Shown: positions 8,774-34,924 of the stretch, in pieces
Numbering within the stretch: the stretch's first letter is position 1
Layout: every line of letters starts with the position of its first letter
Virus record (IMG/VR): IMGVR_UViG_3300009169_000018
Span: 1-64,000 of that record
Length of the DNA: 64,000 bases
Source: a virus
Reading direction: 5' to 3' (one strand)
The notes under the pieces: generated by a model
The model's input: the letters and a program-made list of their open reading frames with translations, nothing else
Told to the model about the DNA's origin: nothing
The model's database searches: none
Translations under genes and position numbers: made by a program

Positions 8774-8850
8774 GCAAAGGTCGTCTAACGGTTTAGGATA
8801 CTAGACTTTCAATCTGGAAGATGCGGGTTCGAATCCCGTCCTTTGCTCCA
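8774..8850 (+). tRNA. tRNA-Glu(TTC)
   Basis: Acceptor GCAAAGG/CCTTTGC, anticodon loop CTTTCAA, canonical T-loop TTCGAAT, CCA encoded. First tRNA of the array. Confidence 0.9.
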
Positions 8851-8969
8851 ATTCTCAGAGCGCGACTAAATGCGCGTTCGGTAATGTGTCGGGAAAAGAG
8901 CGGTGCAATTCCGCAGTCACCTTCGGGTGTCAGTAAGTGTAATCAGGTGCACGTTCCCATTGTTTCTAT
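8851..8969 (+). other. Spacer with a riboswitch-like fold (unassigned)
   Basis: No tRNA or ORF. GGGAA (8891) then GCGGTGCAATTCCGC and CACCTTCGGGTG: a GGTGCAATTCC T-loop hairpin after GGGAA resembles the core of cobalamin riboswitches, but later conserved parts are not evident. It could equally be a decayed tRNA. Confidence 0.25.
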
Positions 8970-9045
8970 TCCGGGTTGACTAGAGTGGTAATAGCCGCGA
9001 CTGTTAATCGCGTACTCGTAGGTTCGATCCCTACACCCGGAGCCA
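8970..9045 (+). tRNA. tRNA-Asn(GTT)
   Basis: Acceptor TCCGGGT/ACCCGGA, anticodon stem CGCGA/TCGCG with loop CTGTTAA, discriminator G, CCA encoded. Confidence 0.9.
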
Positions 9046-9049
9046 ACAT

Positions 9050-9125
9050 GCGTAGGTAATTCAACGGCTAGATTGCTTCCCTGTCACGGAAGATTATGCG
9101 GGTTCGAATCCCGTCTTACGCGCCA
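9050..9125 (+). tRNA. tRNA-Asp(GTC)
   Basis: Acceptor GCGTAGG/CTTACGC, anticodon loop CTGTCAC, discriminator G typical of Asp, CCA encoded. Confidence 0.9.
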
Positions 9126-9236
9126 ACTTCGTAGTATGACCTACGTAAGATGTATTCCCGCTCGCAAAAGCGTAGGAGCATCCGGTGTCAAAGTCGCAGG
9201 GGGTTGCGTATCCTGATAAAACGCAAGACGAATTCC

Positions 9237-9310
9237 GGGGAGTTAGTATAACGGGATTATTTCTCGCTTGCACCGAGAAGACAAGGGTTCGATTCCCTTA
9301 CTCTCCACCA
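9237..9310 (+). tRNA. tRNA-Ala(TGC)
   Basis: Acceptor GGGGAGT/ACTCTCC, anticodon loop CTTGCAC, CCA encoded. The preceding spacer (9126-9236) has a CGTAG/CTACG hairpin and no ORF. Confidence 0.88.
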
Positions 9311-9315
9311 ACAAC

Positions 9316-9392
9316 GGGTCTGTCGTATAACGGCATATTATATCCGGCTCTTAACCGGTAAGATTAGGGTTCGATTCCCTACAGACCCACCA
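9316..9392 (+). tRNA. tRNA-Lys(CTT)
   Basis: Acceptor GGGTCTG/CAGACCC, anticodon loop CTCTTAA on a CCGG stem with one mismatched closing pair, CCA encoded. Confidence 0.88.
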
Positions 9393-9397
9393 ATCAT

Positions 9398-9484
9398 GAG
9401 CGTAACACCCAATAGGAAGGGTATCGGGCTGTAACCCCGAAGTCGGCTAGTTCCGTGTAGGTTCGACTCCTACTGCGCTCACCA
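9398..9484 (+). tRNA. tRNA-Tyr(GTA)
   Basis: Acceptor GAGCGTA/TGCGCTC, anticodon loop CTGTAAC, long variable arm as expected for bacterial Tyr, discriminator A, CCA encoded. Confidence 0.9.
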
Positions 9485-9489
9485 ATTTT

Positions 9490-9584
9490 GTTCCTGTAGT
9501 TTAACGGTAGAACACCACCCTTATAAAGTGGCATTGTCGCCAGATTAGCGAACGGTCTAGGTTCGAATCCTAGCAGGAACACCA
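9490..9584 (+). tRNA. tRNA-Ile(TAT) with an extra variable arm
   Basis: Acceptor GTTCCTG/CAGGAAC, D-stem GTTT/GAAC, anticodon loop CTTATAA, T-arm CTAGG/CCTAG, CCA encoded. It is 95 nt because a TCGC-CAGATTA-GCGA hairpin sits in the variable region; without that insert it is an ordinary class I tRNA. The anticodon would read AUA. Confidence 0.75.
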
Positions 9585-9592
9585 GTAGATTT

Positions 9593-9669
9593 CGGAGTGT
9601 AGCTCAGTCTGGTAGAGCACTGCGTTTGGGGCGCAGGTGTCCAAAGTTCGAATCTTTGTACTCCGACCA
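9593..9669 (+). tRNA. tRNA-Pro(TGG) copy 1
   Basis: Acceptor CGGAGTG/TACTCCG, anticodon stem CTGCG/CGCAG with loop TTTGGGG, C1 and A73 as in Pro, CCA encoded. Confidence 0.9.
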
Positions 9670-9675
9670 ATTTTT

Positions 9676-9754
9676 GCGAGTGTAGCAGAATCGGCATATG
9701 CGGGACACTTAAAACGTCCGTCACTTGTGGGTTCGACTCCCACTACTCGCACCA
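9676..9754 (+). tRNA. tRNA-Leu(TAA), short variable loop
   Basis: Acceptor GCGAGTG/TACTCGC, anticodon loop CTTAAAA, A73, CCA encoded. The variable region is only about 7 nt, whereas bacterial Leu tRNAs normally have a long arm. Confidence 0.85.
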
Positions 9755-9974
9755 GAACTTGCGCGAACGCTAGGGATGACAACCCAAGGTCTTGCTCGTC
9801 ACAAGACTGTTAGTAACGCAACGTATAAAGCGGAGCGCGGAAATCGCGTTCGCAAACAGAATGATAGAGCCACCGGTAAAACTCCGGTCCTTGATAGACT
9901 AGCAAGCTACAAGGTAGTTCAAGAGGTCAACGCTTCGCAGCAAAGACCGCGACAGAACACTATCGCATATTTAC
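9755..9974 (+). other. 220-nt spacer with hairpins, unassigned
   Basis: No supported ORF. Contains GTCTTG/CAAGAC around a 7-base loop CTCGTCA, ACCGG/CCGGT around TAAAACT, and CTTGA/TCAAG. The fragments look like anticodon and T arms but no full cloverleaf is evident. Confidence 0.35.
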
Positions 9975-10048
9975 GCGGGGTTGGCATAATGGTTGTGTCC
10001 AAGTCTTCCAAACTTGTTACGCGGGTTCGATTCCCGCACTCCGCTCCA
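9975..10048 (+). tRNA. tRNA-Gly(TCC)
   Basis: Acceptor GCGGGGT/ACTCCGC, anticodon loop CTTCCAA, discriminator T, CCA encoded. Confidence 0.9.
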
Positions 10049-10052
10049 ATTC

Positions 10053-10128
10053 GCCCTTATAGCATAACGGAAAGTGCGTCGGGTTTCTACCCCGTTCGGT
10101 GTGGGTTCGATTCCTACTGAGGGCACCA
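10053..10128 (+). tRNA. tRNA-Arg(TCT)
   Basis: Acceptor GCCCTTA/TGAGGGC, anticodon loop TTTCTAC, CCA encoded. A one-base shift would read CTA (amber), but the stem does not support it. Confidence 0.85.
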
Positions 10129-10138
10129 ATTATTCAAT

Positions 10139-10215
10139 GCGCCTGTGACGGAACTGGCATACGTGTTAGTCTTAGAAGCTAAATTTTGTGGGTTCGACTC
10201 CCACCGGGCGCACCA
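10139..10215 (+). tRNA. tRNA-Leu(TAG), short variable loop
   Basis: Acceptor GCGCCTG/CGGGCGC, anticodon loop CTTAGAA, 5-nt variable region ATTTT, T-stem GTGGG/CCCAC, A73, CCA encoded. Confidence 0.88.
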
Positions 10216-10222
10216 ATTTCAT

Positions 10223-10296
10223 GTGGGATAAGTGTTACGGTAGCACAATAGTCTCCAAAACTACTAGCGGGGGTTCGACTCCCTCATCCCACGCCA
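10223..10296 (+). tRNA. tRNA-Trp(CCA)
   Basis: Acceptor GTGGGAT/ATCCCAC, anticodon loop CTCCAAA, discriminator G, CCA encoded. Confidence 0.9.
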
Positions 10297-10301
10297 ACAT
10301 C

Positions 10302-10377
10302 GGGTCCATGACGTAACGGCTAGCGTATCGGGCTTTTACCCCGTAAAGTCAGAGTTCGAATCTCTGTGGACCCACCA
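10302..10377 (+). tRNA. tRNA-Lys(TTT)
   Basis: Acceptor GGGTCCA/TGGACCC, anticodon loop CTTTTAC, CCA encoded. Confidence 0.9.
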
Positions 10378-10556
10378 AAAAAGGTAGCTCGTAGCTTCCT
10401 AGAGAGTTAGTGCCGCTGCCGGTGCGAGTAGTTAGCCAACACTACTGCGCAGCAGAGAACGGTACTAACGATCTTCAATAGCGCGATAGATAGCTTCGCG
10501 GGTGTTAGCGGGTATGGTAGGAAATGACCGTATCAAAAACCCGCCGCGAATTCAAT
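10378..10556 (+). other. 179-nt spacer with a dumbbell hairpin
   Basis: No ORF supported. CGCGA/TCGCG hairpin, then GCGGGT paired with ACCCGC (10497-10544 area) enclosing an 8-bp GGTATGGT/ACCGTATC hairpin. It resembles an acceptor stem plus one arm but is not a standard tRNA. Confidence 0.35.
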
Positions 10557-10631
10557 GCCGGTGTCTTCTAATGGCTAGGAACGTCAGCCGATTACTGACT
10601 AATGGGGGTTCGATTCCTCTCACCGGTACCA
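10557..10631 (+). tRNA. tRNA-Ile(GAT) with C33
   Basis: Acceptor GCCGGTG/CACCGGT, perfect anticodon stem GTCAG/CTGAC, loop CCGATTA. Position 33 is C instead of the near-universal U. CCA encoded. Confidence 0.75.
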
Positions 10632-10636
10632 ACTTT

Positions 10637-10711
10637 GCCCTTGTATTTCAACGGACAGAATACGACGCTACGAACGTCATGATGGGGGTTCGATTCCCTC
10701 CGAGGGTACCA
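10637..10711 (+). tRNA. tRNA-Arg(ACG)
   Basis: Acceptor GCCCTTG/CGAGGGT, anticodon loop CTACGAA (A34 would be edited to inosine), CCA encoded. Confidence 0.88.
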
Positions 10712-10716
10712 ACTTT

Positions 10717-10791
10717 GTCTCTATAGTGTAATGGATAACACGCAACTCTCCGAAGGTTGTAATTCAGGCTCGACTCCTGATAGGGACACCA
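10717..10791 (+). tRNA. tRNA-Arg(CCG)
   Basis: Acceptor GTCTCTA/TAGGGAC, anticodon loop CTCCGAA, T-loop CTCGACT (C54), CCA encoded. Confidence 0.88.
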
Positions 10792-10835
10792 AACACAATG
10801 CCGCAAAAATGGGGAAACCTGTTGCGTGGCTCTCC

Positions 10836-10910
10836 GGTGATATCGTACAACGGCTAGTACAGGAGTCTCATAAGCTCTTAATGATGGTTCGATTCCATCT
10901 TTCACCACCA
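10836..10910 (+). tRNA. tRNA-Met(CAT) or Ile2, copy 1
   Basis: Acceptor GGTGATA/TTTCACC with one mismatch, anticodon loop CTCATAA. No initiator GGG/CCC anticodon-stem pairs, so elongator Met or lysidine-type Ile. CCA encoded. Confidence 0.82.
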
Positions 10911-10917
10911 ATTCAAT

Positions 10918-10992
10918 GCCGTCATAGTATAATGGCGATTACGTCTGTCTTGTAAGCAGACTATCTCAGTTCGATTCTGAGTGACGGCTCCA
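10918..10992 (+). tRNA. tRNA-Thr(TGT)
   Basis: Acceptor GCCGTCA/TGACGGC, anticodon stem TCTGT/GCAGA with loop CTTGTAA, discriminator T, CCA encoded. Confidence 0.9.
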
Positions 10993-10997
10993 AATAT

Positions 10998-11073
10998 GTA
11001 AGCGTGGCAGACCGGCAGATGCATCGGATTGCAAACCCGATTTAAGCGAGTTCAATTCTCGCCGCTTACTCCA
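10998..11073 (+). tRNA. tRNA-Cys(GCA)
   Basis: Acceptor GTAAGCG/CGCTTAC, anticodon loop TTGCAAA, discriminator T (U73, as in Cys), CCA encoded. Confidence 0.9.
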
Positions 11074-11079
11074 AACAAT

Positions 11080-11153
11080 GCCCGATTCGTAAAATGGTAT
11101 TACCTCGCTTTTACACGGCGAAGTCGGCAGTTCGATCCTGTCATCGGGTACCA
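11080..11153 (+). tRNA. tRNA-Val(TAC)
   Basis: Acceptor GCCCGAT/ATCGGGT, anticodon loop TTTACAC on stem TCGCT/GGCGA, CCA encoded. Confidence 0.9.
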
Positions 11154-11162
11154 ACAAACAAT

Positions 11163-11238
11163 AGCGAAAGAGTGAAACGGTTTACATTCTAGCCTCATAA
11201 GCTAGAGACATTGGGTTCGACTCCCATGATCGCTACCA
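11163..11238 (+). tRNA. tRNA-Met(CAT) or Ile2, copy 2
   Basis: Anticodon stem CTAGC/GCTAG, loop CTCATAA. The acceptor is weak (5 of 7 pairs), T-arm TTGGG/CCCAT with loop TTCGACT, CCA encoded. No initiator signature. Confidence 0.75.
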
Positions 11239-11243
11239 ACAAC

Positions 11244-11317
11244 GTCCGATTAGCTTAAAAGTGAAGCACAGACCTGATAAGTCTGAGAAGTAGGAGCATT
11301 ACCTACATTGGACACCA
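11244..11317 (+). tRNA. tRNA-Ile(GAT), alternative elbow
   Basis: Acceptor GTCCGAT/ATTGGAC, anticodon CAGAC/GTCTG with loop CTGATAA. The D-loop is 7 nt AAAAGTG with no GG, and the T-loop is AGCATTA instead of TTCRANN on a perfect GTAGG/CCTAC stem. CCA encoded. Confidence 0.85.
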
Positions 11318-11403
11318 ACTACATTCAGCGCACGAAAAGGTAAGTAGTGCGGTCTTGCGTCAACAAGGCGAGTTGTATCTTGACGGATATGATGACTGCG
11401 TGC

Positions 11404-11478
11404 GCCGCCATAGTATAACGGTTATTACAAGGTCTTGGTAAGACTTGAATCACAGTTCGATTCTGTGTGGTGGCACCA
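11404..11478 (+). tRNA. tRNA-Thr(GGT)
   Basis: Acceptor GCCGCCA/TGGTGGC, anticodon loop TTGGTAA, CCA encoded. The preceding spacer (11318-11403) has a CGTCAA/TTGACG pairing only. Confidence 0.9.
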
Positions 11479-11561
11479 ATTCAATTCAGCACTCGTTCAT
11501 TTTCGCGAATGTTCGAAGCTACTGTGAAAGTCAGTCGTCGGTAGCGCGATAGCTACGCCAT

Positions 11562-11635
11562 GCGGGTATGATGTATTGGTTGCCTAGAACTTTGCCAAAG
11601 TTCATGAACGGGTTCGATTCCCGTTACCCGCTCCA
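11562..11635 (+). tRNA. tRNA-Gly(GCC)
   Basis: Acceptor GCGGGTA/TACCCGC, anticodon stem GAACT/AGTTC with loop TTGCCAA, discriminator T, CCA encoded. Confidence 0.92.
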
Positions 11636-11637
11636 AT

Positions 11638-12252
11638 TCAACACGGATCGTATCTGTAATCCAAGCGATACAGGTCTTCGATCCCGCGTCTTAGATCGTC
11701 GGTAACAACGAGGTCTGTTATGAAGTTCGGCTTCTCGTTCTCAACGGGAATGTCGATTGCCGTATCACCACCGAAGATGCCGATAAGTCTTCTGGCTTCC
11801 GATTCGAAGTCATGATAGTTGAGTACGTTCATGTTCGGATGGTCAAACCATGCGGACTGCGGCTTGAAGCCGAGAATGTTAGTGCGGTTGATCCGCTCCA
11901 ACAAATCCACCGGCTGACGATTGATCTTCTCTCTTAGGTGTTGCGGCAGCGCGTTGAATGACTCTTCATCCAATGGCTCTGGCATGACGACACCAGAGAA
12001 GTCTTCCGGAAAAAGTTTGAACAGGACGGTTCGATACGTGCGCAGAAAGTTGTACGTGGATACGAAACGTTCTACAGGGTCGCGCCAGAAAGCGTAACCC
12101 GTCAGTGCTAAATACGCGGGACTTGGAGTGTCATGAATGTGAACAGCAACATTCGTCCCAAGCGGTCTTAGCAGATTTCGAATGGTAGTCGAACCAGTCT
12201 TCGGCACCAGATAGAAAATGTATTTGTTATCGTGACTGACGATCATACTCAT
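11638..12252 (-). CDS. Sulfotransferase-family protein
   Basis: 204 aa and the only convincing minus-strand gene. Early LVPKTGSTTIRN corresponds to the 5'-phosphosulfate loop of PAPS-dependent sulfotransferases, and FWRDPVERFVSTYNF to the 3'-phosphate-binding segment with its following helix. Such enzymes move a sulfate from PAPS to a sugar, lipid or protein hydroxyl. The length is near that of the short bacterial members. It sits inside the tRNA array, opposite in direction, with its stop 3 bases past tRNA-Gly, which suggests later insertion. Target unknown; surface glycan modification would be a guess. Confidence 0.75.
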   Translation of the reverse strand: MSMIVSHDNKYIFYLVPKTGSTTIRNLLRPLGTNVAVHIHDTPSPAYLALTGYAFWRDPVERFVSTYNFLRTYRTVLFKLFPEDFSGVVMPEPLDEESFNALPQHLREKINRQPVDLLERINRTNILGFKPQSAWFDHPNMNVLNYHDFESEARRLIGIFGGDTAIDIPVENEKPNFITDLVVTDDLRRGIEDLYRLDYRYDPC

Positions 12253-12268
12253 ATTTAGGGGAAGAGAA

Positions 12269-12373
12269 ATGTTCCAAGAAAGAAATAGAGCATACTACCT
12301 AAGACAAGCGCGAGCATGTTTCAAGGCAGGCTTGATCTTTCTGAAACGTTCGGTCTTCCTCCCCAAGAGATAA
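12269..12373 (+). CDS. Small basic protein (34 aa), tentative
   Basis: AGGGGAAGAG precedes the ATG by a good distance. The peptide is rich in Arg and Tyr (MFQERNRAYYLRQARACFKA...). It lies between the antisense sulfotransferase and tRNA-Phe, nearly touching the tRNA. Divergent promoter sequences could also lie here. Supported only by the ribosome site. Confidence 0.4.
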   Translation: MFQERNRAYYLRQARACFKAGLIFLKRSVFLPKR

Positions 12374-12374
12374 T

Positions 12375-12450
12375 GTCCTCTAAACTAATCTAGTGAAAGT
12401 GCAAGTTTGAAAAACTTGAGAGGTTGGAGCGTAACCAACAGAGGACACCA
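12375..12450 (+). tRNA. tRNA-Phe(GAA), alternative elbow
   Basis: Acceptor GTCCTCT/AGAGGAC, anticodon stem CAAGT/ACTTG with loop TTGAAAA. T-loop AGCGTAA on GTTGG/CCAAC; the D-loop contains TAGTGAA and no GG. CCA encoded. Confidence 0.85.
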
Positions 12451-12556
12451 CATTTCCTACGTCACTGAAATTGAACGTAGCGTAATAGAGTCAACAGATG
12501 AAACGACCTCCCTAGTGGTGCACTCAATAGTGCTGAAAAAATCTGTCGAATACAAT

Positions 12557-12633
12557 GCACCGGTCTTCTAACAGGATAGGAAAACAGATTCTCAATCTGT
12601 GCAATGACGGTTCGAATCCGTTCCGGTGCGCCA
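12557..12633 (+). tRNA. tRNA-Glu(CTC)
   Basis: Acceptor GCACCGG/CCGGTGC, anticodon stem ACAGA/TCTGT with loop TTCTCAA, discriminator G, CCA encoded. Confidence 0.88.
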
Positions 12634-12639
12634 ACCAAT

Positions 12640-12702
12640 CGTCCCGCGCATAGCTCGACAGCGCATGTGTACACATGGGCAGAATCAACTGCCGGGATGA
12701 CC
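12640..12702 (+). other. tRNA-like cloverleaf without a proper anticodon arm
   Basis: 63 nt ending in CCA. Acceptor-like CGTCCC/GGGATG, D-like GCGC/GCGC, a palindromic middle arm ATGTGTACACAT that leaves no 7-base anticodon loop, and GGCAG/CTGCC with a 6-base loop. It may be a CCA-bearing tRNA mimic or a decayed tRNA. Confidence 0.4.
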
Positions 12703-12708
12703 AGATAA

Positions 12709-12783
12709 CAGGATGTAAGTCAAAAGCAGACGACCTCGCTTGGAACGAGGAGGTAGGTGGAGCGTTACCACCCATCCTGACCA
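12709..12783 (+). tRNA. tRNA-Pro(TGG) copy 2, alternative elbow
   Basis: Acceptor CAGGATG/CATCCTG, anticodon stem CCTCG/CGAGG with loop CTTGGAA. D-loop AAAAGCA (7 nt), T-loop AGCGTTA on GGTGG/CCACC. CCA encoded. Confidence 0.85.
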
Positions 12784-12926
12784 ACATCTTGCGTACATTT
12801 TCTAGAGGGTGTACGTGAGGACTTGAAAGTAGCCGACTGGCAAATTACGATTCAAGCGTCACGCCCTTTACGATACAGGGCGACTCATTCAGAAAGTAGT
12901 TCATATGGACTACTAAGTAGATCAAT
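12784..12926 (+). other. 143-nt spacer with hairpins
   Basis: No ORF supported. CGTACA/TGTACG, CTTGAA/TTCAAG and GCCCT/AGGGC pairings are visible; no known RNA class recognised. Confidence 0.3.
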
Positions 12927-13003
12927 GGTGCCGGTAGCATAATGGTTAATGCCCAAGACTGTGAATCTTGAAGATGCGGGTTCGAATCCCGTCCAGCACC
13001 CCA
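12927..13003 (+). tRNA. tRNA-His(GTG)
   Basis: An encoded G-1 pairs with C73, the His identity mark. Anticodon stem CAAGA/TCTTG with loop CTGTGAA, CCA encoded. Confidence 0.9.
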
Positions 13004-13022
13004 AACACAAACGGAGTTTCCC

Positions 13023-13202
13023 ATGGCAGCGAAGAACGATGTAACAGGCGATAGCATAAAAACTAAGACCGGCAACTCTAATGCATATGCAAAGGGTTGG
13101 GATCGTATCTTCAAGAAAGGGAAAGCCAAGAAAGGTGAAGAACTAACAGTGTGCGTTGCAAAGCGCGGCGTTGGTAAGTCAACCTTCAACAAGAACAATT
13201 GA
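13023..13202 (+). CDS. Small basic protein (59 aa) inside the tRNA array
   Basis: ACGGAG lies 8 bases before the ATG. Lysine-rich (KKGKAKKGEEL) with a late CVAKRGVGKSTFNKNN that superficially resembles a P-loop but is too short to be an NTPase. Its TGA stop forms the first bases of the next tRNA (Gln). Function unknown. Confidence 0.55.
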   Translation: MAAKNDVTGDSIKTKTGNSNAYAKGWDRIFKKGKAKKGEELTVCVAKRGVGKSTFNKNN

Positions 13203-13277
13203 CCACATGCGGTACCGGTATCTGCACCTTGTCTTTGAAACAAGATTTTCTAGGTTCGAATCCTAGGTGGTCAGCCA
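13200..13277 (+). tRNA. tRNA-Gln(TTG)
   Basis: Acceptor TGACCAC/GTGGTCA, anticodon stem CTTGT/ACAAG with loop CTTTGAA, discriminator G, CCA encoded. Its first three bases are the stop codon of the gene before. Confidence 0.88.
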
Positions 13278-13409
13278 ATTTCTCTCGCGAGGAAAAACAA
13301 CGAATCGTACTACGTTGTAAAACAAGGGTACGCAACCATGTGCTGAAAGCAGACGGCTAACGTGCTGTCTCTTCCTTCGGGAAGTGGAGTAAGAGTGGTG
13401 GTAGTAAGC

Positions 13410-13486
13410 GATTCTAAGATAGTTCAATCAGGTAGAACAACCTCACGCTAAGAGGGAGACAGAGGTTCAAATCCTCACTAGAATCC
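13410..13486 (+). tRNA. tRNA-Ser(GCT)-like, C33, no encoded CCA
   Basis: Acceptor GATTCTA/TAGAATC, T-loop TTCAAAT, anticodon loop ACGCTAA with C at position 33. The variable loop is short, unlike normal Ser tRNAs, and the 3' end reads CCGG instead of CCA. A GGACGCA/TGCGTCC hairpin follows. Identity uncertain. Confidence 0.6.
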
Positions 13487-13524
13487 GGACGCAGCTTCCA
13501 AGAATGCCAAATGCGTCCAACTTT

Positions 13525-13598
13525 TCTCGGCTCGTCTAACGGCAGGACGCAACACTCTGAATGTTGCTATCGAGGTTCGAATCCTTGGCTGAGAACCA
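13525..13598 (+). tRNA. tRNA-Gln(CTG)
   Basis: Acceptor TCTCGGC/GCTGAGA, anticodon stem CAACA/TGTTG with loop CTCTGAA, CCA encoded. Confidence 0.88.
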
Positions 13599-13638
13599 AA
13601 CATACATACTCTTGAGTGACCCTCAAGAGGATTACAAG

Positions 13639-14181
13639 ATGGAACCGATTCAAGTGATGTACGAAGGCGACCTCGCCCCTCTGATTGAGTGGGCTGAGAA
13701 TGGCGACAGGGATCGCGACGGATTAGGCTTCGCGCCTGAACCGTTCTACTCATGGGTGCGCAATCACATGCCGCCCTACTGTCGCGGATTCGTTACGAAC
13801 ACCATCGGGTACATAACGGAGAATGGAATCTTCGACGGTGATTGGGTTAAGGGATATCCACATATCCATACCACAACGATGTTTTGGGAACCCGAGATAT
13901 ACACCATCATCACCTATCTGATCGTACCCGAAGAGGGTGGCGAATTCGCGATGGGTGGATTGGAACGGAACGATCCGTACACTTTGATTCCGGTCAAGCC
14001 GGGATTGTCCATCGGGTGTGATTCAATCACATGGCATGGAGTCAAGCAAGTACGAAAGGGAAAGCGCGTTGCGATAGTGACGGCAGGCTTTCCATCACAA
14101 GAGTACCAGAAGAAATGTCTGGCACTGAGAAACGAGAACAAAGGAAGGTTGCGCGAGAGGCTTATGCGCCCTGTTTGCTAA
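13639..14181 (+). CDS. 2OG-Fe(II)-oxygenase-like (double-stranded beta-helix) protein
   Basis: 180 aa from ATG 13639, with AAGAGG 8 bases upstream. The middle shows a jelly-roll pattern: PHIHTTTMFW, YTIITYLIVPEEGGEFAMGG, then PVKPGLSIGCDSITWHGV and a basic GKRVAIVTAG. This resembles prolyl-4-hydroxylase-type 2-oxoglutarate oxygenases, the His residues being likely iron ligands, though the first motif is HxH rather than the usual HxD. The last 13 codons lie within tRNA-Ser(GCT), and the TAA stop falls in its anticodon loop. Confidence 0.6.
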   Translation: MEPIQVMYEGDLAPLIEWAENGDRDRDGLGFAPEPFYSWVRNHMPPYCRGFVTNTIGYITENGIFDGDWVKGYPHIHTTTMFWEPEIYTIITYLIVPEEGGEFAMGGLERNDPYTLIPVKPGLSIGCDSITWHGVKQVRKGKRVAIVTAGFPSQEYQKKCLALRNENKGRLRERLMRPVC

Positions 14182-14230
14182 ACAGAGGGATGTAACAGTC
14201 ACAGAGGTTCGAATCCTCTACCTTCCGCCA
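14143..14230 (+). tRNA. tRNA-Ser(GCT), class II
   Basis: Acceptor GGAAGGT/ACCTTCC, anticodon loop TTGCTAA, long variable arm, discriminator G, CCA encoded. Overlaps the 3' end of the oxygenase-like gene by 39 bases. Confidence 0.9.
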
Positions 14231-14235
14231 AATTT

Positions 14236-14325
14236 GGAAGATTGACCGAGAGGCTTATGGTTCCCGCTTGGAAAGCGGTGAGTGGGGAAACCTACACACA
14301 GGTTCAAATCCTGTATCTTCCGCCA
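14236..14325 (+). tRNA. tRNA-Ser(GGA), class II
   Basis: Acceptor GGAAGAT/ATCTTCC, anticodon loop TTGGAAA, long variable arm, CCA encoded. Confidence 0.92.
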
Positions 14326-14330
14326 CATAT

Positions 14331-14404
14331 GGTTCTGTCGTATAGAAGCAATACACGGCATTGACATTGCTGAAAAGATGGAGCGTTACCATCCAGAACC
14401 ACCA
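14331..14404 (+). tRNA. tRNA-Val(GAC), alternative elbow
   Basis: Acceptor GGTTCTG/CAGAACC, anticodon stem CGGCA/TGCTG with loop TTGACAT. D-stem GTAT/ATAC with 7-nt loop AGAAGCA; T-loop AGCGTTA on GATGG/CCATC. CCA encoded. Confidence 0.85.
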
Positions 14405-14410
14405 ACTAAA

Positions 14411-14498
14411 GGAAGGTTGGCAGAGAGGCTAATTGCCGCTGTTTCGAAAGCAGATGGGTGTAAAAACCACACAGGTTCAAATCCTGTACCTTCCGCCA
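14411..14498 (+). tRNA. tRNA-Ser(CGA), class II
   Basis: Acceptor GGAAGGT/ACCTTCC, anticodon loop TTCGAAA, long variable arm, CCA encoded. Confidence 0.9.
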
Positions 14499-14504
14499 GA
14501 CAAT

Positions 14505-14581
14505 GCGAGTGTGATGTAACTGGCAAACGTGATCGGCTCAAACCCGATTTTTTGTGGGTTCGAATCCCACCACTCGCACCA
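14505..14581 (+). tRNA. tRNA-Leu(CAA), short variable loop
   Basis: Acceptor GCGAGTG/CACTCGC, anticodon stem ATCGG/CCGAT with loop CTCAAAC, T-rich short variable loop, A73, CCA encoded. Confidence 0.88.
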
Positions 14582-14585
14582 ATAC

Positions 14586-14662
14586 GCGCCTATGACGGAA
14601 CAGGCATACGTCTAACGTTGAGAACGTTAGTTTTGTGGGTTCGAATCCCACTAGGCGCACCA
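14586..14662 (+). tRNA. tRNA-Leu(GAG), short variable loop
   Basis: Acceptor GCGCCTA/TAGGCGC, anticodon stem TAACG/CGTTA with loop TTGAGAA, variable GTTTT, A73, CCA encoded. Confidence 0.88.
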
Positions 14663-14781
14663 AACATTGAGAGTATGGAAATTACTCAATGAAATTGGAC
14701 TAGGTGAGGATGGAACGTTGCTAGTACGTACACGGAATACCATAACTGTTTAGTCGCCGGAACCATAACCGGAACAATTTA
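14663..14781 (+). other. Spacer upstream of the RNase P RNA
   Basis: No ORF or tRNA. Contains a CCGGAACCATAACCGG hairpin (about 14757-14772) and a TTGAGAG-rich start; could be part of a longer precursor. Confidence 0.3.
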
Positions 14782-14971
14782 CTGAGTCGAGCTAACGCAG
14801 GCAACTGAGGAAGTTCGCGACTCTCGCCAAGGTCGCGTGGGAGGCTAACGCCGTCTAACCACCGTGACACAGAGAGCAACACAAACAGAACGTGGGAAAC
14901 CTTGGCTTATACGTTCGGGTTGTGGCAAAGATGAATGTTAGCATAGAACAGAATCGCGGCTACGGACTCAG
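14782..14971 (+). ncRNA. rnpB: RNase P RNA (compact)
   Basis: About 190 nt. Its ends pair as P1: CTGAGTC (14782-14788) with GACTCAG (14965-14971). In order: a CR-I-like GAGGAAGTT (14807), a P8-like GGCTAACGCC, the CR-II-like ACAGAGAGCAA (14869-14879), then AGATGAATG (14929-14937) and ACAGAATCGCGGCTA (14948-14962), which match CR-V of bacterial RNase P RNA. It is about half the E. coli length; much of the P3 and P10-P17 elaboration is absent. It would supply the catalytic RNA that trims tRNA 5' ends, working with host protein. It lies within the tRNA array. Confidence 0.8.
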
Positions 14972-15068
14972 TAATTTCAATAGCTGACCCATACGTGTCG
15001 AAAGCTCTTTAGGCAAGACTTGCGGAAGTCGAAATACGCAAGTTAGACGGTGGGTTGGCGGTACCTAT
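14972..15068 (+). other. Spacer with a 7-bp hairpin
   Basis: ACTTGCG/CGCAAGT hairpin enclosed by ACCCA/TGGGT pairing; no ORF and no recognised RNA family. Confidence 0.3.
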
Positions 15069-15145
15069 ACCCTTGTAGTTTCAACGGACAGAACACCCCG
15101 GTCCTAACGGGTCCAATGCAGGTTCGAATCCTGTCGAGGGTACCA
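15069..15145 (+). tRNA. tRNA-Arg(CCT)
   Basis: Acceptor ACCCTTG/CGAGGGT, anticodon loop GTCCTAA, CCA encoded. Confidence 0.87.
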
Positions 15146-15152
15146 CATATTC

Positions 15153-15227
15153 GCTGTCATCGTATAATGGCTATTACGGATGTTTCGTAAGCATCCTATC
15201 TCAGTTCGACTCTGAGTGACAGCACCA
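15153..15227 (+). tRNA. tRNA-Thr(CGT)
   Basis: Acceptor GCTGTCA/TGACAGC, anticodon stem GATGT/GCATC with loop TTCGTAA, CCA encoded. Confidence 0.9.
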
Positions 15228-15231
15228 GTTT

Positions 15232-15319
15232 GGAAGACTAACTCAACAAGGTTGGGACTCGCCTTGAAAGCGATGGGATGCCTAACGGCATTGGGGCGCG
15301 ATACCTCAGTCTTCCGCCA
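15232..15319 (+). tRNA. tRNA-Ser(TGA), class II, odd T-loop
   Basis: Acceptor GGAAGAC/GTCTTCC, anticodon loop CTTGAAA, long variable arm. The T-loop is CGCGATA on TGGGG/CCTCA rather than TTCRANN. CCA encoded. Confidence 0.85.
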
Positions 15320-15325
15320 AGTTAG

Positions 15326-15386
15326 GGGAAACTTTCAGCAAATCAAACAAACTTTACCTGTAATAAAGCAAAAGCGTTTCCCGCCA
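15326..15386 (+). other. Armless tRNA-like element (61 nt)
   Basis: Perfect acceptor-like GGGAAAC/GTTTCCC then G-CCA, and a CTTTA/TAAAG hairpin with 7-base loop CCTGTAA. No D-arm or T-arm can be formed. It could be a minimal tRNA-like RNA or a remnant. Confidence 0.35.
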
Positions 15387-15430
15387 AATTAGAAAGCGTA
15401 CAGCAAACCAAAATTCTCTACGAAAGACCT

Positions 15431-15495
15431 AGACCGGTTCGACTCCGGAATGCTCCACCAATGCGAAGGGGCTTTAGTGTAACGGCAGCACATGA
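15431..15495 (+). pseudogene. tRNA halves in swapped order (3' half then 5' half)
   Basis: 15431-15460 is a T-arm (CCGG-TTCGACT-CCGG) plus ATGCTCC-A-CCA. 15467-15491 is a 5' half: GGGGCTT, then D-arm GTGT-AACGGCA-GCAC. The two acceptor strands pair 6 of 7 in swapped order. No matching anticodon stem was found, so a rearranged remnant is likelier than a working permuted tRNA. Confidence 0.4.
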
Positions 15496-23200: not shown

Positions 23201-24259
23201 ATGAGCAAGCAAACACACATGTCCGTGTTCATCGGACGCTTTCAGCCGCCACACAAGGCGCACATCGAAACCATCACTCGCGCATTGGAATTCTCCGACA
23301 AGGTGCTAATTCTAATCGGTTCGGCATTCAAGCCATCCGACACGCGCAATCCGTTCCCCGCAGCAGAACGCCGGGAAATGATCCAGACTTGCTTTAATCT
23401 GGAAACGCAAAAGCGACTCGTATTCGACTATATCTCCGACCATCCATACAACGATCTTGCGTGGGTGAAGAATGTCCAGACCGCAATCGACAAGGCTTAC
23501 TATGACAACTTCGGTTGGCAGGACAAGGCTGACATTACGCTGATCGGACACCACAAAGACGAGTCCACGTATTATCTCGACCTCTTCCCGTCTTACAAGC
23601 AAGCGGAAATGGAGAACATCTACGGTCTGGATTCCACGACCATCCGTGAACTCTACTTCGCAGGCAAGGATGCGTGGAAGAACAGCAACATGAAGCGTGT
23701 CGCGCAGTTCGTTCCGCAGCCGGTCATGAACTACATCACCAATCACATGAAGCTGATCGCGTATGATCGTCTTGTGCGCGAATTCGAATTCCTTCGCACC
23801 TACAGGCTACAGTGGTCGCAGGCTCCGTATCCACCAGTGTTCGTCACTGCGGATGCCGTTGTCACCAACATGGGACACGTTCTACTCGTTCGCCGCAAGT
23901 CCGCACCGGGAGAAGGTCTGTGGGCAATGCCGGGAGGTTTCCTCAATCAGTACGAAACGCTGCGTGAGTGTGCGAATCGCGAACTAGAGGAAGAGACTAA
24001 GATCAAGGTTCCGCCGCGAGTCCTCGACGGTTCAATCGTCAAGGAAAAGCGATACGATCATCCCGGTCGCTCGCTGCGCGGACGCACGATCACAACCGCA
24101 TTTCACTTCGATCTACATGAACGGACTATGCCGAAGGTTCGCGGCTCAGATGACGCTGCGCAAGCCAAGTGGGTTCCGTTGGCTGAATTCATCAAGATGC
24201 AAGCCGTCATGTACGAAGACCACTATTCAATCATCACCGACCTTCTAGGTTTGGGCTGA
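23201..24259 (+). CDS. Bifunctional NMN adenylyltransferase / Nudix hydrolase
   Basis: 352 aa. N-terminal domain: [10 protein letters not shown] nucleotide-binding motif of NMNAT, with the later STTIRE. C-terminal domain: Nudix box [21 protein letters not shown]. The same fusion is known from the NadM-Nudix/NatV proteins of other large phages such as KVP40. It makes NAD+ from NMN plus ATP, and the Nudix part probably cleaves ADP-ribose. TAAGGGAG lies upstream. Paired with the NAMPT gene that follows. Confidence 0.92.
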
Positions 24260-24301: not shown

Positions 24302-25675
24302 ATGCGTACCAATCTTCTACTTAACACCGACTCGTACAAGGCTTCCCACTGGCTCCAATACCCACCGGGAACAGAGTACGTCTATTCATACATCGAATCT
24401 CGCGGCGGTCTTCATGACGCGACCGTGTTCTTCGGTCTACAGGCATTCGTAAAAGAATACCTGATCGGCGGCGTGTTTACTCAGGATGACATTGAGGAAG
24501 CCGCAGCGTTCTTTGCCGCACATGGCGAACCGTTCAATCGTGAGGGATGGGAATACATCCTGCGCGAATACGGTGGCAAGCTGCCAATCGAAATCAAGGC
24601 ACTGCCAGAAGGTCTGCGCGTTCCTGTGCGCACTCCGCTAGTCACCATCGTCAACACAGACCCGAAGTGCTTCTGGTTGACCTCGTATCTGGAAACCGCA
24701 CTGCTTCGCGCAGTCTGGTATCCGACGACTGTTGCGACAATCTCACACTACATCAAGACCATCATCAAGCGTGAACTGGAAGAGACAGGCGACCTCGCCG
24801 GTCTGCCGTTCAAGCTACATGACTTCGGTGCGCGTGGCGTATCGTCCAACGAATCCGCAGCCCTCGGTGGCATGGCGCATCTGGTCAACTTCCAAGGCTC
24901 CGACACGGTTCAGGGTGTAGTCGCGGCGGCTCGTTACTACAACGAGAAGATGGCAGCGTTCTCCATCCCCGCAGCCGAGCATTCCACGATTACTACGTGG
25001 GGTAAGACTCGCGACGGTGAGACTGCGGCATACTACAACATGATTCAGAAGTACAGCAAGCCGGGAAGCATCTTCGCAGTTGTTTCTGACTCCTACGATA
25101 TCTTCAAGGCGTGCGAAGAGATTTGGGGTGGAAGCCTCAAGGATGCCGTAATTGCTCACGGTGGTACTCTGGTCATCCGTCCTGACTCCGGTGATCCGGT
25201 TGCTGTCACACTTCGCTGCGTCCAGATTCTTGACGAGAAGTTCGGCAGCACTCGCAATGACAAGGGATTCAAAGTCCTCAATCACGTTCGACTCATTCAG
25301 GGTGACGGTGTGAATCCTTCAAGCATCGAAGCCATCCTGATGAACTTCAAGGCACATGGCTACAGCGCAGACAACATTGCGTTCGGCATGGGCGGCGCGT
25401 TGCTCCAACACATGAACCGTGACACACAAGAGTTCGCAATGAAGGCGAGCGCAGTCATGGTCAACGGTGAATGGCGGGACGTATCCAAGTCACCTGTCGG
25501 TCAGGCTTCGAAAAAGTCGAAAGGTGGACGTTTCTCGGTGGTTATGGAAGGCGGTCGCCTGATAACCATCGGTTATGACGAGACTGAGGAAGACTACTTG
25601 AGAACCGTTCTCATCAACGGGAAACTGGTACGGGACATGACACTAAGCCAGATTCGCTACAATACGAGCCTCTAG
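24302..25675 (+). CDS. nadV: Nicotinamide phosphoribosyltransferase
   Basis: 457 aa, typical NAMPT length. MRTNLLLNTDSYKASHWLQYPPGTEYVYSY is the classic N terminus; HDFGARGVSS, TTWG and VIRPDSGDP line the PRPP/nicotinamide site. Converts nicotinamide plus PRPP to NMN, which the upstream enzyme turns into NAD+. Together they form a two-step NAD+ regeneration route that does not depend on host de novo synthesis. AAGGAG precedes the ATG. Confidence 0.95.
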   Translation: MRTNLLLNTDSYKASHWLQYPPGTEYVYSYIESRGGLHDATVFFGLQAFVKEYLIGGVFTQDDIEEAAAFFAAHGEPFNREGWEYILREYGGKLPIEIKALPEGLRVPVRTPLVTIVNTDPKCFWLTSYLETALLRAVWYPTTVATISHYIKTIIKRELEETGDLAGLPFKLHDFGARGVSSNESAALGGMAHLVNFQGSDTVQGVVAAARYYNEKMAAFSIPAAEHSTITTWGKTRDGETAAYYNMIQKYSKPGSIFAVVSDSYDIFKACEEIWGGSLKDAVIAHGGTLVIRPDSGDPVAVTLRCVQILDEKFGSTRNDKGFKVLNHVRLIQGDGVNPSSIEAILMNFKAHGYSADNIAFGMGGALLQHMNRDTQEFAMKASAVMVNGEWRDVSKSPVGQASKKSKGGRFSVVMEGGRLITIGYDETEEDYLRTVLINGKLVRDMTLSQIRYNTSL

Positions 25676-34429: not shown

Positions 34430-34540
34430 ATGGAACTATTACTAGGATTTGTCGCAGGCGCATTGGTGGGATGGCACTTCCCGCAGCCTGCATGGGTTAA
34501 GACTCTGATTGCGGCAGTGAAAGCCAAGCTAGCGGAGTAA
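34430..34540 (+). CDS. Small membrane peptide (36 aa)
   Basis: TGGAGG lies upstream of the ATG. LLLGFVAGALVGWHF, then a cationic helix. Ends just before the tmRNA precursor. Confidence 0.5.
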   Translation: MELLLGFVAGALVGWHFPQPAWVKTLIAAVKAKLAE

Positions 34541-34858
34541 TCGGTTATAGTGGTATGATGTGAAGTGAAGGTATTCTGGACGCGGGTTCGACTCCCGCCT
34601 GCTCCACCACGAAAGACTCTCACCCGAGATGCGCAGAAGTTGAGTTCTTACTGCGATACAAGGGAACAACACTCTGAGAGTCTTTCGTAATGGGGCAGTC
34701 AAGGTTTCGACAGGGTAAGATAGCGGAACGGACCACTAGAGAGGCGACTGACTTAATCAGCGCAAACACTACAAATGCAAACGCAGATGTATACGAGGAA
34801 GTGCGCCTAGCGGCGTGACCCTCCGGGGCAGGAAATGCCTTGTTACCAAAACCACCAG
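34541..34858 (+). ncRNA. ssrA: tmRNA, circularly permuted two-piece form
   Basis: Acceptor piece first: T-arm GCGGG-TTCGACT-CCCGC, then CTGCTCC-A-CCA (34599-34609). The intervening segment is closed by a perfect 13-bp helix (34610-34622 with 34675-34687). The coding piece starts GGGGCAG (34692-34698), which pairs with CTGCTCC, then TCAAGGTTTCGACAGGG. The tag is read from GCA 34762 to TGA 34816-34818: ANTTNANADVYEEVRLAA. P2 is supported by GGTT..TGGTA (34543-34555) pairing with TACCA.AACC (34844-34853). It rescues stalled ribosomes and tags the nascent protein. The order matches alphaproteobacterial ssrA. Confidence 0.92.
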
Positions 34859-34860
34859 AA

Positions 34861-34888
34861 GGGGAGAGGGCAACCTCTCCCCGTCTTT
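34861..34888 (+). terminator. Terminator of the tmRNA
   Basis: GGGGAGAG (34861-34868) pairs with CTCTCCCC (34875-34882), followed by a T-rich run. Confidence 0.75.
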
Positions 34889-34924
34889 ACATGATGAAAG
34901 TCGCAACACATGGAGGAAAATAAC

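Follow-up and report, generated by a model that had tools for sequence, protein, structure and literature searches.

Results

A compact RNase P RNA gene inside a phage tRNA array

The 64,000-nt stretch of DNA analysed here (the window) comes from a 75,548-base IMG/VR virus record and encodes T4-like baseplate, hub, SSB, RNA-ligase and DNA-ligase genes. It also carries an array of 35 tRNAs (8774-15227, ARAGORN), all on the plus strand and all with an encoded CCA (35/35). Between the tRNA-Leu ending at 14662 and the tRNA-Arg starting at 15069 lies, on the same strand, a gene for an RNase P RNA (RPR) of 196 nt, extending from P1 to P1 (14779-14974) and separated from the next tRNA by 94 nt. RNase P is near-universal in cells, and the E. 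coli RPR measures 377 nt. A preliminary description, made from the sequence alone, had proposed an RNase P RNA of about half the normal size inside a phage tRNA array, and its presence, size and location were all upheld.

The locus was recognized by two independent covariance models, both built without knowledge of the window sequence: RF00010 (46.2 bits, E 4.2e-13, at 14779-14978, in a scan of a 701-base stretch) and RF00373 (49.3 bits, E 7.3e-11, at 14780-14973, in a scan of the whole window). The absence of a significant covariance-model match, which would have refuted the preliminary description, was therefore not observed. In addition, this strand folds better than shuffled sequences (z -3.3). 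Both scores lie under the gathering scores of the models (100 for RF00010 and 84 for RF00373), so the gene is missed by default annotation, and this is probably why it had never been annotated. Indeed, the default Rfam scan, which applies those cut-offs, listed no RPR at this locus, and neither did an RF00010 search over the whole 75,548-base record, a filter and threshold effect.

Anatomy of the RNA

All elements described here are on the plus strand. P1 is a 10-bp helix between UUACUGAGUC (14779-14788) and GACUCAGUAA (14965-14974); the terminal pairing CTGAGTC/GACTCAG recognized earlier is thus correct but shorter than the actual helix. P2 joins GCUAAC (14791-14796) to GUUAGC (14937-14942), and P3 is a minimal 3-bp hairpin, CAG-GCAA-CUG (14798-14807), supported by covariation. 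CR-I, GAGGAAGUUCGCGA (14807-14820), includes the 5' strand of P4 (14812-14820), whose partner (14954-14961) lies in CR-V, ACAGAAUCGCGGCUA (14948-14962, supported by covariation and letter conservation), and the resulting helix, AGUUCGCGA/UCGCGGCU, has a bulged U. P5 pairs CUCUC (14821-14825) with GAGAG (14872-14876), and its 3' strand runs into the GCAA of CR-IV (14872-14880 together), again with support from both covariation and letter conservation. The P6 pseudoknot is formed by GCCAAGGU (14826-14833) and ACCUUGGC (14899-14906), the latter carried by L17. The segment 14880-14924 comprises P15 (CACA/UGUG), P16 (GAACGU/ACGUUC, 14888-14893/14911-14916, supported by covariation), L17 and L15, where the GGGU adjoining P15 (14917-14920) is expected to pair with the tRNA 3' CCA. 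Finally, J18/2, AGAUGAAU, is found at 14929-14936, while P18 itself is missing.

In the place of P7-P14 of the bacterial RPR there is only a remnant of the specificity domain (14834-14864), made of a 6-bp P7 with one bulged base (14834-14840/14859-14864) and capped by a small P8-like hairpin (14843-14852). CR-II, CR-III and P9-P14 are, like P18, missing. Since CR-I, CR-IV and CR-V are catalytic-domain elements, and CR-II and CR-III, which touch the tRNA at its D and T loops, are specificity-domain elements (PMC4919922), the window RPR is a catalytic domain with a stump.

P1/P2/P3, CR-IV/J5-15 and J18/2 follow the canonical order, and the earlier identification of CR-I, J18/2 and CR-V in the right order held. 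The earlier reading of ACAGAGAGCAA as CR-II failed: this motif is the 3' strand of P5 followed by CR-IV, as its GAGAG and the P5 5' strand change together (CUCUC/GAGAG, CUGGC/GCCAG, CUUGU/ACAAG) and its GCAA corresponds to CR-IV/J5-15. Its resemblance to CR-II is accidental.

At the clan level, the requirements for an RNase P RNA, namely a P4 with bulged U, the canonical order of elements and a match to an independent model, are all satisfied. So is the type A requirement for a P6 pseudoknot and P15-P16 with the L15 GGU. The requirement for a specificity domain with CR-II and CR-III is not, with only P7 and one small hairpin left, and we therefore class the RNA as a variant rather than a canonical type A RPR; nor, at 46.2 bits, does it reach the score of at least 100 that defines the curated RF00010 family. 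Thus, 14779-14974 is a genuine RNase P RNA, and its identity, structure and conservation, its linkage to tRNAs and the absence of RnpA (both below) are established. It is encoded by a phage, and the likely reading is that it derives from a type A ancestor pared down to the catalytic domain.

Relatives in other phages

Relatives were sought with degenerate CR-I and CR-V pattern scans of viral contigs, followed by a covariance model (R1) made from 11 sequences. This yielded 78 distinct phage-type RPRs, two of them from bacterial assemblies. R1 matched every one of the 50 loci tested first (E below 1e-6), most of which were not in the seed, and gave about 28 strong matches in a second locus set; in the 13 records scanned whole, it found exactly one copy each. 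By blastn, a copy was located in the cultured Stenotrophomonas phage DLP6 (KU682439.2, 105815-106007), 7 nt ahead of a tRNA. Members are also carried by the huge phages LR756501 (735 kb) and LR756511 (595 kb), whose genomes count among the largest known for phages; all of these copies are unannotated. When several members were used as blastn queries on the phage collection, the DLP6 and huge-phage records were the only ones returned besides a single chance-level row, and plasmids gave no match.

Some phage relatives are closer to the standard form, and three pass the RF00010 gathering score (L094 with 136, L020 with 118 and L050 with 105). At the other extreme, the smallest RPRs (L085, 4060-4233, and L086, 7484-7660, minus strand) are of about 150 nt each, of which the part from CR-I through CR-V takes up just 113 nt, and they lack the specificity domain altogether: P7 is lost and a short loop closes P5. 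By reading, this P5 loop bears the partner of P6, CUGG/CCAG in one and CCUGAC/GUCAGG in the other, so that the sequences differ and complementarity is kept. RF00010 scored L085 at 64.8 bits (E 1.7e-17). Both genes lie beside a tRNA cluster and have an extended -10 box (TGnTATAAT) directly ahead of P1, and in L085 a tRNA begins 6 nt past P1. This range, from near-standard to minimal, could be taken to suggest repeated capture or progressive reduction, although this is an inference. Separately, L003 (7577-7812), of which L012 is an identical copy, apparently has an unpaired P2, which would fit an exchange of its 5' part, and its 3' half is closely like L025; this may be a recombinant or broken copy.

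Covariation supports the fold and the catalytic core

Among 11 close relatives, 93.8% of pair cells hold standard pairs, versus at most 41% when the partners are slid, and double changes occupy 125 cells versus at most 21. The figures for 50 relatives are 93.3% versus at most 39.3%, with 727 double-change cells versus at most 112. In the smaller set, changes on both sides are seen in 8/10 pairs of P1, 5/6 of P2 and 3/5 of P5, with P2 and P5 paired in 100% of cells; in the larger set, they are seen in all 10 pairs of P1, and P3 is paired in 99% of cells. A tighter realignment of the relatives broke P1 and was dropped.

The 50-sequence alignment was fitted to the nested structure of the covariance model, and P4 and P6 are outside this model. 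Despite this, P4 is paired in 99% of cells, with double changes in 5/8 pairs. Related phages have the compensatory forms CGCG/CGCG, GGG/CCC, CCC/GGG and GACG/CGUC, as well as AGU/GCUU-type and GUU/GGCU-type variants, and all of these forms keep the bulged U, which is present in 49 of the 50 sequences. The search pattern had fixed some letters of CR-I and CR-V, including the bulged T or C, but not the P4 pairing. The other outcome that would have refuted the preliminary description, the lack of a conserved P4 in related phages, was thus not met either. P6 shows double changes in 7/8 pairs (11 sequences). Moreover, its 5' strand forms a Watson-Crick helix of at least 5 bp with its own L17 in 94% of cases versus 21.5% with the L17 of other RNAs, and none of 10,000 permutations reached the observed mean.

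The letters expected to matter for catalysis in an RPR are also kept. The three letters of the L15 GGU are retained in 48, 49 and 48 of the 50 sequences; the first A and G and the final AU of J18/2 are invariant, and the GCAA of CR-IV is nearly so, none of these L15, J18/2 or CR-IV letters having been imposed by the search pattern.

The RPR genes travel with tRNAs and without RnpA

A tRNA lies within 5 kb of the RPR in 68 of the 78 cases, and five or more tRNAs do so in 54. All 904 neighbouring tRNAs are on the strand of the RPR, and a check with reversed sequences showed that tRNAs on the opposite strand would have been detected. Of the ten RPRs with no tRNA close by, eight come from records that have tRNAs at other positions; in the two remaining records (40 kb and 94 kb), no tRNA was found. 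Where there is a downstream tRNA, it starts no more than 15 nt after the 3' end of P1 in 30/55 cases, and an upstream tRNA ends within the same distance of the 5' end in 24/63, with the caveat that the P1 ends were placed automatically for these counts and are wrong in a few. The RPR thus takes a tRNA-like slot in the arrays, which predicts that an RNase P cut at the next tRNA would free its 3' end; the cleavage is inferred. Among relatives of the window phage identified through a baseplate protein, an RPR is present in 4/7 tRNA-bearing versus 0/13 tRNA-less records, although these are fragments and the support is weak. Across RPR-bearing phages, CCA is encoded in 654 of 1062 distinct tRNAs, and the L15 GGU is retained even though many of these phages have tRNAs without it. 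A search of 35 distinct records, among them the complete DLP6 genome (168 kb) and the 735-kb phage, turned up no RnpA gene, while control genomes were positive.

Across about 85,000 genomes of bacteria and archaea, the compact pattern gave 18 matches, of which R1 backed only two, one on an Achromobacter contig that carries about 33 tRNAs and the other on a Flavobacteriales contig that carries six. Most of the others were chance matches, or internal matches to ordinary RPRs. A full-size RPR of its own (202 bits) is likewise present in this Achromobacter genome. As far as the pattern can detect, the compact form is nearly absent from cellular genomes and belongs essentially to mobile elements. 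As a side observation, L076 and L163 correspond to a 487-kb Achromobacter anxifer contig in which the compact RPR, accompanied by about 33 tRNAs, lies about 14 kb from the start and which also encodes a TrwB/TraD-type conjugation coupling protein, gyrase B and thymidylate synthase. We could speculate that this is a conjugative megaplasmid with the same RPR-tRNA module; L076 and L163 had no match in the plasmid collection.

Discussion

Relation to known RNAs

RNase P RNA is itself well known, its reduction to this extent is known in cells from the archaeal type T, and phage ribozymes acting on tRNAs are known from the theta ribozymes. With type A (RF00010; E. coli M1 RNA), the window RPR shares P1-P5, including the P4 with bulged U, the P6 pseudoknot, P15-P16 with the L15 GGU, CR-I, CR-IV, CR-V and J18/2; it differs in lacking CR-II, CR-III, P9-P14 and P18, in being encoded by a phage and in its position inside a tRNA array. 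The type T (= P) RPR of Pyrobaculum (Lai et al. 2010; PMC4919922, PMC5839562) similarly keeps the catalytic domain and P6, lacks P18 and has almost lost the specificity domain. However, it is cellular, archaeal and served by archaeal proteins, whereas the phage RPR belongs to the bacterial type, and the RnpA that it must meet is bacterial. Type T also presupposes an archaeal genome, and this is not the case here, given the tailed-phage genes in the window and the Stenotrophomonas host of the cultured member DLP6. The two have likely converged, their relationship being untested.

The closest likeness in the laboratory is the engineered catalytic domain of the E. coli RPR (Eco CP RPR), which is active with and without the protein C5, helped by a P6-like pairing (PMC5839562); it is man-made, while the phage RPR is a natural, conserved gene. 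The diverged RPRs of CPR bacteria also fall below model cut-offs, and many of them lack P13, P14, P16 and P17, some also P12 and P18, but these RNAs are cellular and retain a large part of the specificity domain (PMC8172020). Finally, the theta ribozymes of gut phages are, like the phage RPR, catalytic-type RNAs encoded beside phage tRNAs, and have been proposed to mature them. Unlike the RPR, they are self-cleaving, HDV-like and act at the tRNA 3' end, and the authors attributed the 5' ends to the usual RNase P (PMC10879173).

The open-access literature searched yielded no previous description of an RNase P RNA encoded by a phage, nor of a viral RPR without the specificity domain. Subscription papers and preprints were outside this search, and priority is uncertain. 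RNase P is not mentioned in the 2020 huge-phage paper that includes the 735-kb genome, in the DLP6 paper or in a 2026 review of jumbo phages.

A phage ribozyme that would borrow a host protein

The explanation we favour, and consider likely, is that the phage supplies a catalytic-domain RPR that works with the RnpA of the host to trim phage pre-tRNAs. In this model, the RPR would be co-transcribed with the surrounding tRNA array and fold into the P1-P6/P15-P17 core. It would then bind host RnpA, which we propose because the phages encode none, and its L15 GGU would pair with the 3' CCA of phage pre-tRNAs. The short 5' leaders within the array would be cleaved as a result, and a cut at the 5' end of the downstream tRNA would also free the 3' end of the RPR itself. 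Transcription, RnpA binding, cleavage and the benefit to the phage are all inferred, and the same holds for the catalysis and the processing of phage tRNAs proposed in the preliminary description, activity not having been shown. The E. coli catalytic domain alone does cleave, weakly without protein, far better with C5 and depending on the P6-like pairing (PMC5839562). The phage RPRs resemble this construct in natural form, with a P6 of up to 8 bp, and the use of host RnpA and action on phage pre-tRNAs would therefore be expected. The price of losing the specificity domain is more than hundredfold, as the rate of the E. coli RNA on a model substrate falls from 12 to 0.095, and with C5 from 2161 to 18 (PMC5839562).

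Several points weigh against this explanation. Expression and activity data are lacking, many phage tRNAs have no encoded CCA, two records show no tRNA, and the window RPR scores under the Rfam cut-offs. The benefit is also unexplained, since loss of the specificity domain slows the E. coli RNA so strongly and the host already supplies a full-size RNase P. It is possible, although untested, that host RNase P is saturated by 35 or more tRNAs arriving at once, that host RNA decays after infection, that some pre-tRNAs have poor elbows, or that the phage escapes a host defence attacking tRNA processing. It is also tempting to go further and see in these genes a widespread viral lineage of catalytic-domain-only RPRs, down to about 150 nt, that co-opt a host protein for viral tRNA operons and free themselves through the adjacent tRNA cut; we lean towards this bolder reading, if only slightly.

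Alternative explanations

Among the alternatives, a retargeted RNase P survives best and remains possible. Here, with T-loop recognition gone, the RNA would act with RnpA on host or phage mRNAs, on the permuted phage tmRNA or on array spacers, besides or instead of phage tRNAs. In its favour, the part that reads the tRNA elbow has been lost, and permuted tmRNA, a type of precursor processed by RNase P, exceeds the cut-off in 7 of 28 records. Against it, the linkage to tRNA arrays far exceeds that to tmRNA, and the L15 GGU is kept.

We consider it unlikely that the RNA is a decoy, a non-cutting core that soaks up host RnpA and slows host tRNA maturation. The phages have no RnpA of their own, the core retains the RnpA site, and an RPR without the specificity domain is a weaker enzyme (PMC5839562), all of which would fit. 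However, a decoy has no need for the bulged U of P4, J18/2, the CR-IV adenines, the L15 GGU or a covarying P6, and the same-strand position inside tRNA arrays suits tRNA processing better. A ribozyme that works without protein, or with an unrelated phage protein, is similarly doubtful. RnpA was not found in the phage records, and bacterial RPRs and isolated catalytic domains cut unaided at high Mg2+ (PMC5839562), but the infected cell offers host RnpA and the isolated domain is very slow without protein.

A functionless, decaying remnant of a captured host RPR would be in line with the small size and the scores below the gathering cut-offs, but this is very unlikely, as neutral decay cannot be reconciled with 727 compensatory cells and a nearly invariant catalytic core in 50 divergent sequences. 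The window is from a metagenomic virus record, but contamination by misbinned bacterial DNA is all but excluded by the T4-like baseplate, hub and SSB genes in the window, by the copy in the complete genome of the cultured phage DLP6 and by the pattern scan, in which the compact form appeared in only two of about 85,000 cellular genomes, both on tRNA-rich contigs.

These genes provide a natural RPR that has almost no specificity domain and is maintained by selection across many phages. The minimal size of a working RNase P thus becomes testable, as do the dispensability of tRNA-elbow recognition and the reason for which a phage with a large tRNA array would carry a tRNA-processing ribozyme of its own. 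The cultured phage DLP6 provides a direct experimental system.

Other features of the window

Four further tRNAs in the window were seen by Rfam and not called by ARAGORN (11163-11235, 12375-12447, 13413-13483 and 14331-14401). The array also has long noncoding gaps without an Rfam match (9755-9974, 10378-10556, 12634-12927, 14663-14778, 14975-15068 and 15228-15490), which may hold more structured RNAs. Outside the array, a permuted (two-piece) tmRNA with the tag ANADVYEEVRLAA is encoded at 34517-34909 (RF04321, 124 bits). DLP6 is among the seven RPR-bearing records above the RF04321 cut-off, and its tmRNA (102838-103059) has no tmRNA feature in its annotation. The window also carries NAD salvage genes, one for a nicotinamide phosphoribosyltransferase (24302-25675) and one for a cytidyltransferase/NUDIX protein (23201-24259), and the former gene lies near the array in DLP6 as well.
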